DNA of 64,000 bases from Geomonas sp. RF6 (GTDB taxonomy: Bacteria > Desulfobacterota > Desulfuromonadia > Geobacterales > Geobacteraceae): assembly GCF_021044625.1 (NCBI RefSeq), contig NZ_CP087999.1, positions 3,493,001 to 3,557,000 of the forward strand. Reading direction: 5' to 3'. Below the pieces are notes generated by a model. It had not been told where the DNA came from, ran no database searches, and saw nothing but the letters and a program-made list of their open reading frames with translations. Numbering within the stretch: position 1 is the stretch's first letter; every line of letters begins with the position of its first letter. The position numbers and the translations under genes were made by a program. Of this stretch, positions 26,444 through 55,115 are shown in pieces.

Positions 26444-26867
26444 TGTAGGTTTCCTGTGGGATGTAGGTAAATGTAGGCCGGCATAAGCGAAGCGTTGCCG
26501 GCATTAAGGTGGCTTATCCGGGAAGTGCGTGGAAGCCACTGTTGTGTCTGCGAATAAGCAGTACGCGAGGCTTTACGTTCCCCCCTTTGCGAAGGTTCGT
26601 CTGGGAATTCTGGGGAAGCTTGCATCGCTTTAATCCGCCGGCCCTGTGTGTCTTTAGCAGGTCAGGAGCTCAGGCGTCCCCTCCCTTTCAAGGGGAGGGA
26701 CAGGGTGGGGATGGGGTAGAGTTGGCCGCGCCGACCCCATCCCCCTCCTGTCCTCCCCCTTGAAAGGGGAGGAACGCGCTGCCGGCGGCTTGCTCTGATT
26801 CATCTCCTCCACGCGAGGGCACCCGCGTTCTTTATAACGACCTTCCCCGGAATTCCCGGATGAACCT
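26444..26867. repeat. Intergenic stretch with REP-like, family 1 and family 2 repeats
   Basis: No gene seen in these 424 bases. They hold a REP-like unit (26471-26505, with a partial inverted arm to 26524), a forward family 1 copy (26577-26618), a family 2 inverted pair (26676-26718 and 26735-26773, separated by 16 bases), and an inverted family 1 remnant (26841-26869). The family 2 pair can fold into a long hairpin and may end the upstream transcript. Confidence 0.7.
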
Positions 26868-49404: not shown

Positions 49405-49502
49405 ATGTAGGCCGGAATAAGCGTAGCGTTTCCGGCATTCGCTGCTGCGCCCTGTCTGTCGTGGACTGCCGGGAACGCCTCGCGGCTTATCCCGGCCTAC
49501 AT
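49405..49502. repeat. REP/BIME-like inverted repeat pair
   Basis: A forward arm at 49405-49439 (ATGTAGGCCGGAATAAGCG, then GCGTTTCCGGCATT) and a reverse arm at 49468-49502 (GCCGGGAACGC, then GGCTTATCCCGGCCTACAT). A related forward unit lies at 26471-26505. The arms resemble the GTAGGCCGGATAAGGCG of enterobacterial REP units. Confidence 0.75.
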
Positions 49503-49601: not shown

Positions 49602-49631
49602 TTGCCACACCCCTTTCATCTCTGATAGTAT
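49602..49631 (+). promoter_or_regulatory. Candidate promoter of the cytochrome-barrel operon
   Basis: TTGCCA (49602-49607) and TAGTAT (49626-49631), 18 bases apart. The sequence TAGTATGTTACGCC (49626-49639) is also present upstream of the chemoreceptor gene at 27833-27846. Confidence 0.45.
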
Positions 49632-49709: not shown

Positions 49710-50549
49710 GTGTTCGAGACGTTTGCAAAACTGAAACACGGCCTGGCGAGCTCCATCCTGCAGGCCGATAACGGCGCCTGCGCGGTCGATCTGAACGACA
49801 CGCGCGGCGTCGATATCCGCATCTCCCATCTGAACAAGTACTTCGGCTCCACCCACGTGCTGAAGGACATAAACCTGGAGATCCGCTCCGGCGAGACCTT
49901 CTGCATCATCGGCCCCTCCGGTACGGGGAAGAGCGTCCTTCTGAAGCACATCGTGAAGCTGGAGACCCCGGACAACGGGGAGATCTTCATCGACGGCAAC
50001 CCGATCTTCGCCCAGGAGAAGGCACCCCCCCGCGACTACCGCTACAGCATGGTCTTCCAGTCCTCCGCCCTCTTCAACTCCCTCACTGTGGGGGAAAACG
50101 TGGGGCTTTGGCTCAGGGAGAAGAGGATCTGCAAGGAGCAGCGCATTCGCGAGATCATCCGCGAGAAGCTGGAGATGGTGGGGCTTGTGGGGACGGAGGG
50201 GCTGCGCACTTCGGAGCTCTCCGGCGGTATGAAGAAGAGGGTGGCGATCGCCCGCTCCCTCGCCATGAACCCGGACCTCATCCTCTACGACGAGCCGACG
50301 GCGGAGCTCGACCCGGTAACGACCGACGAGCTGGCGAACACCATCCTGAAGCTGAAGGAAAGCACGAAGAACACCACGGTAATCGTCACGCACGACCTGA
50401 ACTTTGCCCTGTACATCTCGGACCGCATCGCCATGATGCACGGGGGCTCCATCGTGGAGGTCGGCACCCCGGCCGAGATAAAACGCAGCCAGAATCCGGT
50501 CGTGCGCGGCTTCATCTACACCACCACGAAAGGTATAAGGGGAGAGTAG
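49710..50549 (+). CDS. ABC transporter ATP-binding protein, MlaF-like
   Basis: 279-residue ATPase. A 35-residue N-terminal extension precedes the nucleotide-binding domain: Walker A IIGPSGTGKSVLLKHI, Q-loop MVFQSSALFNSLTVGENV, signature LSGGMKKRVAIARSL, Walker B LILYDEPTAELDP, and H-loop VIVTHDLN. The LFNSLTVGENV stretch and the SGGM signature are typical of MlaF/Ttg2A-type lipid-transport ATPases. No MlaE permease or MCE-domain gene is nearby, so it may pair with one encoded elsewhere. GTG start with AAGGA nine bases upstream. Its stop directly abuts the cytochrome start (no gap), so it heads a five-gene operon. Confidence 0.9.
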   Translation: MFETFAKLKHGLASSILQADNGACAVDLNDTRGVDIRISHLNKYFGSTHVLKDINLEIRSGETFCIIGPSGTGKSVLLKHIVKLETPDNGEIFIDGNPIFAQEKAPPRDYRYSMVFQSSALFNSLTVGENVGLWLREKRICKEQRIREIIREKLEMVGLVGTEGLRTSELSGGMKKRVAIARSLAMNPDLILYDEPTAELDPVTTDELANTILKLKESTKNTTVIVTHDLNFALYISDRIAMMHGGSIVEVGTPAEIKRSQNPVVRGFIYTTTKGIRGE

Positions 50550-51569
50550 ATGTCGGTAAAACGAGGCGCACATCCCTTCGTCATCATCCTTTCCCTCGGC
50601 GCGCTCCTGTGCGCCTCCTGCGCGGATCTGAAGCAGTCCAAACCGCTTCTCCCGGTCCGGGAGTACGAAAGGATGATCGTGGGGCGCCTCGACGCGGAGT
50701 ACGTCGGGACCTCGAACTGCGTCTCCAAGTGCCACTTCCACGACAAGATCACCGAGGACTTCTCCCACAGTGTGCACGGGGAGCAGATAAAGCCGGAGAG
50801 CGGGCTCCCCCTGGTGAACTGCGAGTCGTGCCACGGGCCGGGGAGCCTCGCCATCGCGCATCTGGACGACAACCGGGAGAAAAACACCCTCGAGAAGAAG
50901 AAGTGCGACACCTCGACCTTCCTCGACCTCATGCACCTCCCCCCCCAGGCCCAGTCCCTCATCTGTCTCAAGTGCCACTCCGCCGCCTCGGTCCCCGCGC
51001 TCGCCCACTGGAACGGGAGCGGTCATGCCCTTAACGACGTGAGCTGCTCCGACTGCCACAAGCTGCACCGGGGGCCGCAGCAGAAGGTCAGCCGCGAGGA
51101 GATGGCGGAGCTTTGCTACGGCTGCCACCCGGAGGTGCGGGGGGAGAACGCGCTCTACTCCCATCACCCCTTGCGGGAGAAGAAGATGGTATGCGTCGAC
51201 TGCCACGAGGTCCACGGCTCCACCCTCGACTACATGCTGAAGGGGACGAGTCTGAAGGAGACGTGTACCCGCTGCCACATGGAGAAGCAGGGCCCCTTCG
51301 CCTTCGAGCACGCCGACGTCGCAGAAAATTGCCTGAACTGCCACACCCCCCACGGCTCGGTGCACAGCCGTCTCCTGAACGCGGCGATGCCCTTTCTCTG
51401 CCTGCAGTGCCACAACGGGCACGTCCTCGGCTCCGCGCAGGCGCTTCCCGGAACATCCGGGGGGATAAAGGGGCTCTTCACCAACCGGTGCACCGACTGC
51501 CACTCGCAGATCCACGGCAGCGACACCCCTTCCCCGGCCCTTACCGGGCGCGGGACGCTGCGCCAGTAA
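50550..51569 (+). CDS. Decaheme c-type cytochrome, MtrA/DmsE-like
   Basis: 339 residues. N-terminal signal (FVIILSLGALLCASC); cleavage after SCA or lipidation at the Cys is possible. Nine CXXCH heme sites are present (CESCH, CLKCH, CSDCH, CYGCH, CVDCH, CTRCH, CLNCH, CLQCH, CTDCH), and the first site, CVSKCH, has three residues between the cysteines, giving ten potential hemes, the MtrA/DmsE/PioA number. Distal His residues (SVHGEQ, GSGHALN, EVHGSTLDY, TPHGSVHS) match that family. It would sit in the periplasm, partly inside the barrel encoded 18 bases downstream, and carry electrons across the outer membrane. Confidence 0.9.
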   Translation: MSVKRGAHPFVIILSLGALLCASCADLKQSKPLLPVREYERMIVGRLDAEYVGTSNCVSKCHFHDKITEDFSHSVHGEQIKPESGLPLVNCESCHGPGSLAIAHLDDNREKNTLEKKKCDTSTFLDLMHLPPQAQSLICLKCHSAASVPALAHWNGSGHALNDVSCSDCHKLHRGPQQKVSREEMAELCYGCHPEVRGENALYSHHPLREKKMVCVDCHEVHGSTLDYMLKGTSLKETCTRCHMEKQGPFAFEHADVAENCLNCHTPHGSVHSRLLNAAMPFLCLQCHNGHVLGSAQALPGTSGGIKGLFTNRCTDCHSQIHGSDTPSPALTGRGTLRQ

Positions 51570-51587
51570 ATGCGAAGGGAGAAAGGG

Positions 51588-53708
51588 ATGAGAAGAGGGG
51601 GGAGTGTAGCCGAGCACCTGGTACGAAGCCTGCTCCTCCTCGCGCTGGCGACGGCTCCGGTGCGGGGGGAGGAGCCGGCAGAGCTCCCTCCGGAACCGGC
51701 AGGGGCGGACGAGCGCGCCGCGGTAGGGGAGGAGCGCCACGTGGAGACCCTGGAGCAGAAGGGGGGCTCCATCGGCTACCGCTCCGTCTTTCGCGAGGAC
51801 AACCCCTCCCGCGCCCTGCCGTACAGCTACCTCCACTCCTCCGCCGCCGGCACCCTCTTTTACCGCCGCCTGGAGGCGGACAGCAACATCGAGGTCGAGG
51901 GCGCCTTCTTAAACCGCAACGACTACAACGGGGACCTCCTTCTTGACTACCGCGGCGACTACCGCCTGCACCTGCGCACGGAGAGCCTGTACCACAACCT
52001 CGACCGGGAGCTTCTCTTCACCCCCGACTTCATCCTCGACAGCAACGACCCCACGACCGGAAACCGCGCCCGCTATCACGCCAATCAGGATGCGGAGCAG
52101 GGGTACGGGATCAGCGTCACCCAGGACCTCGCGCAGTTCCGGTACCGCCTGCACAACTTCCCGCTGCACGCGAACTTCGGCTACTGGAGGCTCATCCGGG
52201 AGGGGACGATCCAGCAGCGCTTTGCCGACACCTCCTTCGAGGGTACCGGCGGCGCTCTGGCGAGCGGAGCGGAGAACAACGTCTTTGCGGAAGCGCGCGC
52301 GGTCGATCAGCGCACGGAGGAGGGGAGCGTGTCGCTCGACTCGCATCTCGGGCCTGTCGACCTGATCTACGCCTTCAAGGTGCGCCAGTTCGAGGACCGC
52401 GAGCCGATCCCGACCCACGACTACCTGTCGCGCACCGGCACCGACGGGATGACGGTGGACCGCTTCGGAGGGGTGCAGGAGCATAACGAAAACCCGGACA
52501 GCCGGCTCTACTCCCACACGGTAAAGGCGCACACCTCCCTCGCGGGGGGGCTCGCCGCGACCGGTTCCTACACCTTCGAGCGGCGGGAAAACCTGTCGCG
52601 CCTCACCGATACGGCCGGGGTGAAGCACGCGACGGTGGACGTCCAGGGGGGGGCGGGGGATGTCACCTACACCCCGTGCAAGGAATTCACCCTCTCGGTG
52701 AAGTACCGCCACCAGGAGCTCGATCACGACGGCCCGGCGGCCCTTTCCAACTCCTTCTTCACCACGAGCCAGCCGCTGCGCCCGGGGGTGGACACGGTGA
52801 AGGACCAGGTGACGGCGCTCCTTTCGTACCGCCTCTCCCGCACGGCGACGGTAAACGGCGAGTACCGTGGCGACTTCCTCTCCAGGGAGCAGGTGGCGCC
52901 GACCCCGAGCGCCCTTTACTTCGCGCTGCCGGAGCACTCGAACACCCAGCGCGGCACCCTTTCCTTCATCTACCGCCCGAAGAGGGGGGCGCGCCTGAAC
53001 GCCAGGTACAGCTACTCCACGACCGACCACCCCTCCTACGGGGCCTCCTTTGCCGAGCGCCACGAAGGGGAACTCCTCGCCTCCTACACCAGCGGCAGCC
53101 GTTGGGGGGCGACGGCGGGGGTGCGGGAGCGGCGTGACTCCAACGACGAGGTGCAGCGCTTTCTCCTCAACTACCCCTTCGACCCGATAAGCTACAGCAC
53201 CGCCCCCCCCATCTCCCGCTCCCGCGAGAGCCGCAGCGCGAACCTGGCGGTGTGGGTGGCGCCGCTGGCGCGAACGACCGTCAGCGCGCACTACTCCTAC
53301 CTGGAGAACTCCGTCGACCAGGGGGTCTTCTTCACCGGGATCGGGAGCGGCAGCGAGGCCTTTGCCAACTACTTCAACCGTGCGCACGTCTACGCCCTGA
53401 ACGGGACGTACGGGGCGAGCGAGACCCTCGACCTGCAGCTCATGCTGCAGCAGGTCCGCTCCCACGCAGCCTTCCGCCCGCAGATCGTCGCCTTCTCCGC
53501 GACCTCGGACACCTCCGGGGTCCGTGAGCTCACCGAGCAGGAGACCACCATCAGCACCCTCTCCGCCCGCGCGGAAAAGCGCTTCACGGAGCGGCTCTCC
53601 GGCTCGCTGGAGTATTCGCTGAACGACTACCACGAGGGGACCCCCCCCTACAGCACGTACAACGGGACGGTCCACGCCGTTGCCGCCTACCTTTCGGCCA
53701 GATGGTGA
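51588..53708 (+). CDS. Outer-membrane beta-barrel, MtrB/PioB family-like
   Basis: 706 residues. Signal peptide (SLLLLALATAPVRG) followed by a mature chain of alternating polar/hydrophobic strands (GDLLLDYRGDYRLHLRTESLYHN; VTALLSYRLSRTATVNGEYRG; LNARYSYSTTD) ending in SARW, an aromatic C-terminal residue typical of outer-membrane barrels. Length and the pairing with a decaheme cytochrome fit MtrB/PioB, the sheath of a porin-cytochrome conduit. No N-terminal CXXC as in Shewanella MtrB was seen. The ATG at 51588 (AAGGGAGAAAGGG upstream) is preferred to the ATG at 51570 that directly follows the cytochrome stop. Confidence 0.82.
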   Translation: MRRGGSVAEHLVRSLLLLALATAPVRGEEPAELPPEPAGADERAAVGEERHVETLEQKGGSIGYRSVFREDNPSRALPYSYLHSSAAGTLFYRRLEADSNIEVEGAFLNRNDYNGDLLLDYRGDYRLHLRTESLYHNLDRELLFTPDFILDSNDPTTGNRARYHANQDAEQGYGISVTQDLAQFRYRLHNFPLHANFGYWRLIREGTIQQRFADTSFEGTGGALASGAENNVFAEARAVDQRTEEGSVSLDSHLGPVDLIYAFKVRQFEDREPIPTHDYLSRTGTDGMTVDRFGGVQEHNENPDSRLYSHTVKAHTSLAGGLAATGSYTFERRENLSRLTDTAGVKHATVDVQGGAGDVTYTPCKEFTLSVKYRHQELDHDGPAALSNSFFTTSQPLRPGVDTVKDQVTALLSYRLSRTATVNGEYRGDFLSREQVAPTPSALYFALPEHSNTQRGTLSFIYRPKRGARLNARYSYSTTDHPSYGASFAERHEGELLASYTSGSRWGATAGVRERRDSNDEVQRFLLNYPFDPISYSTAPPISRSRESRSANLAVWVAPLARTTVSAHYSYLENSVDQGVFFTGIGSGSEAFANYFNRAHVYALNGTYGASETLDLQLMLQQVRSHAAFRPQIVAFSATSDTSGVRELTEQETTISTLSARAEKRFTERLSGSLEYSLNDYHEGTPPYSTYNGTVHAVAAYLSARW

Positions 53709-54682
53709 GGAGAGAGACTCTGAGGGCGATCCGGATCATACTCCTCGCGCTGGTCGTGTGCGCAGCGCTCCCTGCGTCACGCTCCGGCGCGAGCGGAAAG
53801 CTCGTGGCGGCGCTCCTGACCTGCGACCTCCCCCGGTACCGTGACGCCCACAAGGCCTTTATGAAGTCGCTCGGGCAGAAGGGGTACGACCAGAGCAACC
53901 TGGAGATGATCACCCAGACCCCCAATCCCGACCCTATCTCCTGGGCGAACAGCATCCGCAAGTTCAACGCCATCGGCGCGGACCTGATCGTGGCGTACGG
54001 GGCTCCCGCGGCCCTTGCCGCCATAAAGGAGCAAAGCGAGATACCGGTCGTCTTCGTGGACGTCTACGGCCCGGTGGAGACGGGGGTGGTGCACAGCATG
54101 TCGGGGTCCGGGAAGAACGTGGCGGGGGTGAGCTCGCGGGTCCCGCTGGTGACCCTCATAAAGACAGCGCTCGACCTGAAGGGGGGGAAGGGGCTCGGGG
54201 TGCTGTACAATCCGCGTGAGGAGGGGTCGCTCGTGCAGCTCAGGGAGGCGAGGAGGATCGCGGCTCAGCTCGGCCTCACCGTCACCGAAGTGAACGTCGC
54301 CTCCGCGGCGGGGATCGATGCCGCACTTGCCACACTCTTTGCGGCCAGAGTAGACTATATCTATGTTTCCGAGTGCTCCGCCTGCTGCCGGAGCTTCGAG
54401 AAGATCGTGCACCGCGCCGGGGAGACGCGCATACCGGTGCTCTCCCAGATGCCCGGTGCCGCGGCGAAGGGGGCGCTCATCGCCATGGAGATTGACCCGG
54501 TGGAGCAGGGGCAGGACGGAGCGGAGTACGCCGCGCGCATCCTCGGGGGGCGAAAAGCCGCGGCGCTGCCGGTACTCACGCCGAAGCGGGTCGAGCTGAT
54601 CGTGAACATGAAGACCGCGAGGGCGCTCGACCTGCATGTCCCCCTCTCGGTCCTTTCGGCGGCGACGAAGGTGCTGAAGTGA
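53702..54682 (+). CDS. Periplasmic ABC substrate-binding protein (PF04392-like) with Cys cluster
   Basis: 326 residues with a signal peptide (IRIILLALVVCAALPASRSGA). The two-lobed ABC_sub_bind fold is recognisable: ADLIVAYGAPAALAAIKE, IPVVFVDVYGPVETGVV, VAGVSSRVPLVTLIKTAL, LGVLYNPREEGS, DAALATLFAARVDYIYV, and PVLTPKRVELIVNMKTARAL. In the ligand site, where relatives have YVPTDN, this one has YVSECSACCRSFEK: Cys225, Cys228 and Cys229. That suggests a metal, thiol or redox ligand instead of an amino acid. It overlaps the barrel gene by seven bases and precedes a receiver gene; no permease is adjacent. Confidence 0.85.
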   Translation: MVRRETLRAIRIILLALVVCAALPASRSGASGKLVAALLTCDLPRYRDAHKAFMKSLGQKGYDQSNLEMITQTPNPDPISWANSIRKFNAIGADLIVAYGAPAALAAIKEQSEIPVVFVDVYGPVETGVVHSMSGSGKNVAGVSSRVPLVTLIKTALDLKGGKGLGVLYNPREEGSLVQLREARRIAAQLGLTVTEVNVASAAGIDAALATLFAARVDYIYVSECSACCRSFEKIVHRAGETRIPVLSQMPGAAAKGALIAMEIDPVEQGQDGAEYAARILGGRKAAALPVLTPKRVELIVNMKTARALDLHVPLSVLSAATKVLK

Positions 54683-54698
54683 CAGTTTTGAGGTATCG

Positions 54699-55115
54699 AT
54701 GGCGAGAATTCTGATAGTCGACGGCGACCCCCTCTTCGTGGAGGGGTTGACGGAAAATATAAAGGCGCTCTACCCGCTGCTCCAGGTGGAGACGACGGGG
54801 GACGCGCTGCAGGCCCGCGAGATCCTGAAGGGGGAGCGGGTCGATCTCCTCCTCATGGACCTGGAGCTCCCGGCCCCGCCGGGGATCGACCTGCTGGAGA
54901 GCGCGCTCTCCTCCGGGATGGACAAGAACAGGATCGTCATCCTCTCCGCCCGGGATCCGGAGTACCTGCACGAGCGCTTCCCGATGGGGAGCTGCCTTGC
55001 GGTTCTGAACAAGTTCGAGGCGAAGCAGCAGGCGTGCCTCGACATGATCCTCAGTTCGATGCAGAGAAAGGCCGCCGCCCTCAAGCGCTGCCCGTCCCAG
55101 GGTGGGGGAGGGTGA
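54699..55115 (+). CDS. Stand-alone receiver protein
   Basis: 138 residues, a single receiver domain plus a short tail: ILIVDGDPLFVEGL, phospho-acceptor Asp in LLLMDLELPAPPG, Ser in VILSARDP, and Lys in AVLNKFEAKQ. The second acid of the metal pocket is Gly (VDGD instead of VDDD), so phosphorylation may be weak. GAGG lies before the ATG. Last gene of the operon; its end overlaps the convergent phosphodiesterase gene by 35 bases. The cognate kinase is not in the window's immediate neighbourhood. Confidence 0.85.
   Translation: MARILIVDGDPLFVEGLTENIKALYPLLQVETTGDALQAREILKGERVDLLLMDLELPAPPGIDLLESALSSGMDKNRIVILSARDPEYLHERFPMGSCLAVLNKFEAKQQACLDMILSSMQRKAAALKRCPSQGGGG

Follow-up and report, generated by a model that had tools for sequence, protein, structure and literature searches.

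Genes of the mtrAB type, which specify an electron conduit, have been reported from the Desulfobacterota (PMC12133095), and the main text of that report mentions neither a binding protein nor Mla. Among lipid transporters of the MCE/Mla kind, the mycobacterial ATPase MceG is common to the Mce1 and Mce4 transporters, and the EExDA loop of the permease is likely its docking site (PMC9947336). Within incomplete coverage of the literature, nothing linking MCE/Mla or the binding-protein family PF04392 with MtrAB was found. The locus described here, in a 64,000-nucleotide stretch of the Geomonas sp. RF6 genome (NZ_CP087999.1, positions 3,493,001 to 3,557,000; hereafter the window), brings these components together. 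Five open reading frames are packed on the + strand at 49710-55115 in the order ABC ATPase (ATP), cytochrome (CYT), barrel (BAR), periplasmic binding protein (SBP) and receiver (REC). Probably these are two modules that share one transcription unit, namely a CYT-BAR-SBP electron conduit (module A) and the ATP-REC part of a lipid transporter (module B).

The genes were called as the longest open reading frames, so that their starts are uncertain, and the gaps from ATP to REC are 0, 0, -7 and 16 bases; the gap of 18 bases between CYT and BAR given in the initial annotation holds if BAR starts at its second ATG (51588), and the rest of the order and spacing described there was found as stated. 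A sigma-70-like promoter, identified by consensus match only (TTGCCA-N18-TAGTAT, 49602..49631, + strand), lies 5' of ATP and stands alone, as no convincing internal promoter was found within the five-gene unit. Conservation of the gene order across the Geobacterales had been set beforehand as the check on the proposal, and the order proved to be conserved: it is kept across the order of the host (families f1, f3 and f4) and is found again in dozens of genomes, a recurrence far beyond chance.

ATP, REC and the remote MlaE-MCE genes

The presence and absence of the genes between ATP and REC is revealing of the composition of this unit. CYT, BAR and SBP form a cassette (50550..54682, + strand) that is present or absent as a unit. 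Twelve loci (L196-L207) were sampled from genomes that possess ATP but not CYT, and in ten of them (L196-L201, L203-L205 and L207) ATP and REC are direct neighbors, 12-143 bases apart. In L196 the stop of ATP is fused straight to the ribosome site of REC, the site that lies 3' of SBP in L040 and in the window. The ATP tree requires the cassette to have changed state at least 6-7 times, and the distances of ATP, CYT, SBP and REC correlate (r 0.63-0.87). Thus, an old shared residence followed by repeated loss fits better than repeated arrival of the cassette.

ATP (49710..50549, + strand; ABC_tran 3e-33) is assigned as the MlaF-type ATPase of an MCE/Mla lipid transporter. Its best matches among solved structures are MlaF chains (7d06, 6z5u and 6ic4), and it falls below the cut-off of the MlaF equivalog model (165.8 of 441). 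Four loci of the Desulfuromonadales with the Desulfuromonas type of arrangement (L112, L115, L116 and L153) read MlaE-ATP-MCE-CYT-BAR-SBP; here the ATP ortholog (62-71% identity) sits between MlaE and MCE, directly 5' of the conduit genes. The HDAC, GNAT and TPR genes found 5' in L112 and L115 are those that precede ATP in the Geobacterales, and the Desulfuromonas and Geobacterales loci are therefore the same locus.

The window genome contains three MlaE genes, two of which have their own MlaF. The third, an orphan (G000:C1:3255120-3255905, which is L160:4621-5409; PF02405 and TIGR00056 over cut-off), keeps the EEIDA loop as coupling motif and is flanked by a 485-aa WPL protein and an MCE protein (L160:5471-6541), and no ATPase adjoins it. 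This WPL-MlaE-MCE gene set (G000:C1:3253678-3257040), assigned as the partners of ATP, lies 286 kb from it, and its three products are orthologs of the Desulfuromonas proteins (about 42, 63 and 43%, respectively). All 30 orphan MlaE-MCE loci inspected lack an adjacent MlaF, meaning within 1.5 kb at the 30 loci and genome-wide for the window genome only. The inspected MlaE-MCE loci also have, before MlaE, a repetitive W-P-L/F protein, about 490 aa long and without a Pfam family (L160:3179-4636 and L115:2535-4025), which may be an outer component of this transporter. At neither the window locus nor the remote one was a STAS (MlaB) protein noticed, and no model search for STAS was made.

Co-occurrence was tabulated over 141 genomes, from lists transcribed by hand in which unlisted genomes were counted as absent. 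Of the 107 genomes with a completeness of 90% or more, 106 show agreement between ATP and the orphan type of MlaE (63 with both, 43 with neither), the single discordant genome being G002. This holds where the cytochrome is present (46 with both, 4 with neither) and where it is absent (17 with both, 39 with neither, 1 discordant). Genera g23 and g25 each contain both ATP/MlaE states, and the losses were therefore not one event. ATP is very likely, on the strength of orthology and co-occurrence, the MlaF of the remote MlaE-MCE system, with which it would form a physical complex and drive lipid transport. The initial annotation described ATP as an MlaF-like ATPase without a permease, and a place for it among the parts of the conduit is not supported: a permease and an MCE gene are encoded 286 kb away, and they accompany ATP regardless of the conduit.

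The companion gene REC (54699..55115, + strand; Response_reg 2.1e-11) encodes a receiver of 138 aa in which Response_reg is the sole domain found, with no output domain, as in the single-domain receivers, which are a known kind. The phospho-acceptor Asp (D54), the Ser (S83) and the Lys (K105) are invariant in 13 sequences, and in the window REC the second acidic position (Asp9 elsewhere) is occupied by Gly. Because ATP and REC lie side by side where the cassette is missing, REC belongs with ATP. For the same reason a role of REC as regulator of the conduit was rejected as the main reading, and a place for it among the conduit parts is not supported. MlaB is described in PMC7367683 as acting on MlaF, and by analogy it may tentatively be suggested that REC acts on ATP.

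The probable CYT-BAR conduit and its binding protein

CYT (50550..51569, + strand) is a decaheme cytochrome of the MtrA/DmsE family. It belongs to the paired-CXXCH family, exceeds the cut-off of TIGR03508, the model for DmsE-family decaheme cytochromes (269.9 bits against 192.2), and matches chain A of the solved structure 6r2q (E 1.2e-44), which is MtrA although the printed molecule name does not fit. Its ten heme motifs comprise nine CXXCH and one CX3CH; the latter is the first (CVSKCH, 50718..50735, + strand) and occurs in every one of the 73 orthologs that could be read. A lipobox-like end of the signal peptide (50610..50621, + strand) contains Cys24, invariant in alignment A1. Of 75 rows, 56 conform to a strict lipobox pattern, and the remaining ones mostly keep the Cys after an unusual residue. 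CYT is thus a probable lipoprotein, likely lipid-anchored. Identity to CYT across the loci of relatives ranges from 81% down to 46%. In a tree, a branch with SH-aLRT 98 separates the 29 sampled cassette cytochromes from MtrA and from nine further MtrA-like proteins of the order, a split that is favored by the fact that the loci were found with the motifs of this subfamily.

BAR (51570..53708, + strand) matched no Pfam family, and a search of solved structures with its sequence returned nothing; the match to MtrB came from its fold. An AlphaFold2 model built from 26 sequences (pLDDT 81, pTM 0.74) has MtrB (6r2q_B) as its first match, with a Foldseek E of 1.7e-20, Z of 21.9 and a root-mean-square deviation of 3.5 over 568 residues, the next match having Z 16.8. 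Because CYT exceeds the TIGR03508 cut-off and matches MtrA, and because BAR has the fold of the MtrB-type outer-membrane beta-barrel, the pair is very probably an electron conduit of the MtrAB/PioAB type, as had been proposed from the sequence, and would transfer electrons across the outer membrane. The initial annotation took the pair to be without an outer-surface cytochrome, and no MtrC-family gene reaches the cut-off, the best match to that family (TIGR03507) in the whole genome scoring 26 bits against 209.3; a surface cytochrome of another kind may be present.

Equivalence of the window proteins to GSU2203 and GSU2204 was considered and rejected, as they fall below the cut-offs of those models (241 of 325 and 121 of 350). 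A second type of MtrA-like cluster does occur in the order (L065-L068), in which the barrel bears its own CXXCH motif, and this cluster is probably of the GSU2203/GSU2204 type. The other MtrA-type clusters of the order (L065-L073) contain no SBP, ATP or REC.

SBP (53702..54682, + strand) is a periplasmic binding protein of family PF04392 (ABC_sub_bind, 2.5e-43) with the TrpX fold. Its structural model (pLDDT 92) matches 3lkv (Z 40.5), 3lft with L-Trp (Z 38.9) and 6hni (Z 38.6), the next family scoring about 23. The motif QTPNPDPISWANSIRK (53915..53962, + strand) follows the pattern Q-x-P-x-P-D-x-x-S-x-x-N-x-x-R-K, in which Q72, P74, P76, N83, R86 and K87 are invariant in 19 sequences and the D and S nearly so. 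The Cys residues of the window SBP were considered as a metal site and set aside, as they are not conserved. As for the partners of a PF04392 importer, the SBP locus contains no permease, and its sole ATPase is of the MlaF type. A broken importer made of ATP and SBP was likewise rejected, as this ATPase has its own partners elsewhere.

In a scan of one genome per species, which yielded 78 loci with 66 testable for the position of SBP, SBP lies directly 3' of BAR in 64 of the 66. These loci span the Geobacterales, Desulfuromonas, Desulfobulbia, Desulfobacteria and Nitrospirota, the taxon labels of metagenome bins being taken from record titles. REC comes next after SBP in 34 loci (Geobacterales). 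In 18 loci, or 19 if a split SBP is included, the next gene encodes another binding protein, which is PhnD-like; in 3 it encodes a chemotaxis receptor, and in 3 more a cytochrome of 12-13 hemes, after which a chemotaxis receptor also occurs. Behind the PhnD-like gene there is normally a gene for a HAMP histidine kinase whose outer part contains a CXXCH motif; examples beside the PhnD-like protein and the conduit are L125:11795-13297 and L127:11879-14128, with the motif in the presumed periplasmic part. Since SBP is tied to BAR, and since kinases and chemotaxis receptors adjoin in relatives, this gene context gives about an even chance that SBP is a ligand-sensing partner of the conduit. The sensor proposed in the initial annotation is thus partly supported, by the near inseparability of SBP from the barrel across phyla and by these signaling neighbors.

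Alternative explanations and flanking features

The five genes could alternatively constitute a single machine in which SBP senses a ligand, REC passes the signal on, and the conduit is put together or adjusted by the MlaF-like ATPase. The conserved order over the order of the host, the tight spacing and the single promoter 5' of the unit would all be expected of such a machine. However, 10 of the sampled loci retain ATP and REC with no conduit gene, and two more retain SBP as the only one; 4 genomes with a completeness of 90% or more have the conduit but no ATP; and the permease and MCE partner of the ATPase are encoded elsewhere. Together these findings make a five-part machine highly improbable. 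Assembly of the conduit by the ATPase is likewise unsupported. A looser connection, in which outer-membrane lipid is delivered to or taken from a lipid-anchored conduit by the MCE system and shared expression was selected, is somewhat less improbable but still unlikely. In its favor are the lipobox-type Cys of the cytochrome and the fact that the modules adjoin in two arrangements, MlaE-MlaF-MCE-CYT-BAR-SBP (Desulfuromonas) and ATP-CYT-BAR-SBP-REC (Geobacterales). Yet both arrangements may descend from one ancestral locus with common HDAC-GNAT-TPR neighbors, each module also occurs without the other, and outside the Desulfuromonadia no MCE genes lie beside the cassette in the loci seen. For SBP itself, a role as the capture part of a transporter or in shuttle delivery, acting in trans with a permease encoded elsewhere, is doubtful. 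Membership of PF04392 with the TrpX fold is consistent with such a role, and another PF04392 gene (G000:C1:4648714) has an ABC ATPase about 1 kb away; nevertheless, the SBP neighborhood tracks the barrel and not a transporter, and distant relatives adjoin kinases and chemotaxis receptors.

Several observations weigh against the division into a conduit with its sensor and a separate lipid-transport module. L202 and L206 keep SBP between ATP and REC without the cytochrome and barrel. The overall co-occurrence of ATP and MlaE (p about 1e-29) ignores relatedness and is not to be taken at face value. In the Geobacterales the gene after SBP, REC, is not conduit-specific, so that signaling by SBP there rests on distant relatives. 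In addition, the modules adjoin in both the Desulfuromonas and the Geobacterales arrangements, which leaves room for a link between lipid transport and the conduit; modules A and B may thus be functionally linked.

Further features flank the locus. A REP/BIME-like palindrome (ATGTAGGCCGGAATAAGC / GCTTATCCCGGCCTACAT) lies just 5' of the operon at window positions 49405-49502, and a further unit of this type is found at 26472-26488 (3 matches against 0.01 expected). In most Geobacteraceae (L038-L064 and L078-L114), TM4, a hydrophobic protein of about 150 aa, is encoded directly 5' of ATP, and GCGC, a 130-aa protein ending in CHNCGCGC, is encoded 3' of REC; neither has a Pfam family. Neither open reading frame was seen at the window locus, and a TM4 query against the window's own genome gave no match, which by itself is weak proof of absence. 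Two closely similar copies of the locus with broken frames occur at the two ends of one contig of genome G116 (G116:C1:1-8000, L077, and 4065000-4077000, L058), probably as an assembly overlap.

Proposed mechanism and comparison with known systems

The two-module reading suggests the following mechanism. The decaheme CYT, probably held by a lipid anchor on the inner side of the outer membrane, would fill the MtrB-type barrel, and CYT-BAR would carry electrons across the outer membrane by the MtrAB/PioAB mechanism. SBP would most likely serve as a soluble periplasmic ligand-sensing partner of this conduit; in relatives it would signal to a kinase or chemotaxis receptor, and in the window host to another partner. 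ATP would act as the MlaF that drives an MCE-type lipid transporter, with MlaE and the MCE protein encoded 286 kb away, and REC, its conserved companion, would perhaps be a regulator under the control of phosphorylation, in a role like that of the STAS protein MlaB toward MlaF.

What looked like a puzzling operon thus resolves into two machines of known kinds, and the partner that an orphan ATPase seemed to lack is found. The analysis also defines a conduit subfamily that spans phyla, recognizable by its CX3CH first heme, lipobox-type Cys and nearly constant binding protein. The repeated association with kinases and chemotaxis receptors makes the sensing of extracellular electron acceptors via the conduit a directly testable question. 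It is possible, though speculative, that SBP detects either a ligand or the state of the cytochrome and relays this to a heme-bearing kinase or chemotaxis receptor. If so, outer-membrane electron transfer would itself be a sensory input, and such sensing conduits would be a class spread over the Desulfobacterota and Nitrospirota.

The window conduit shares with the MtrAB, PioAB, MtoAB and DmsEF conduits a decaheme cytochrome of the DmsE/MtrA family adjoining a barrel of the MtrB fold. It differs from the MtrAB-type conduits in the CX3CH first heme, the conserved lipobox-type Cys and an EYExMIVG segment, in its placement on a branch separate from MtrA and from the other MtrA-like proteins of the order, and in carrying a nearly constant SBP gene; its genome has no MtrC-family gene over cut-off. 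SBP has the same fold as the TrpX-type PF04392 proteins (3lft with L-Trp and 6hni, CD0873; Z 38-40) but only 25-26% identity to them, an invariant motif of its own, and a locus without a permease or matching ATPase. The XylFII-LytS sensors (5xsj) likewise use a type-I binding protein for sensing, and the order SBP-PhnD-kinase in relatives is similar to theirs; in contrast, no kinase is present at the window locus. With the Mla/MCE transporters and mycobacterial MceG the system has in common an MlaF-type ATPase, an MlaE permease and an MCE protein, and MceG offers an earlier example of one ATPase serving more than one MCE system. The window system differs from these transporters in that its MlaF gene lies within the operon of an electron conduit and has a receiver gene close by.

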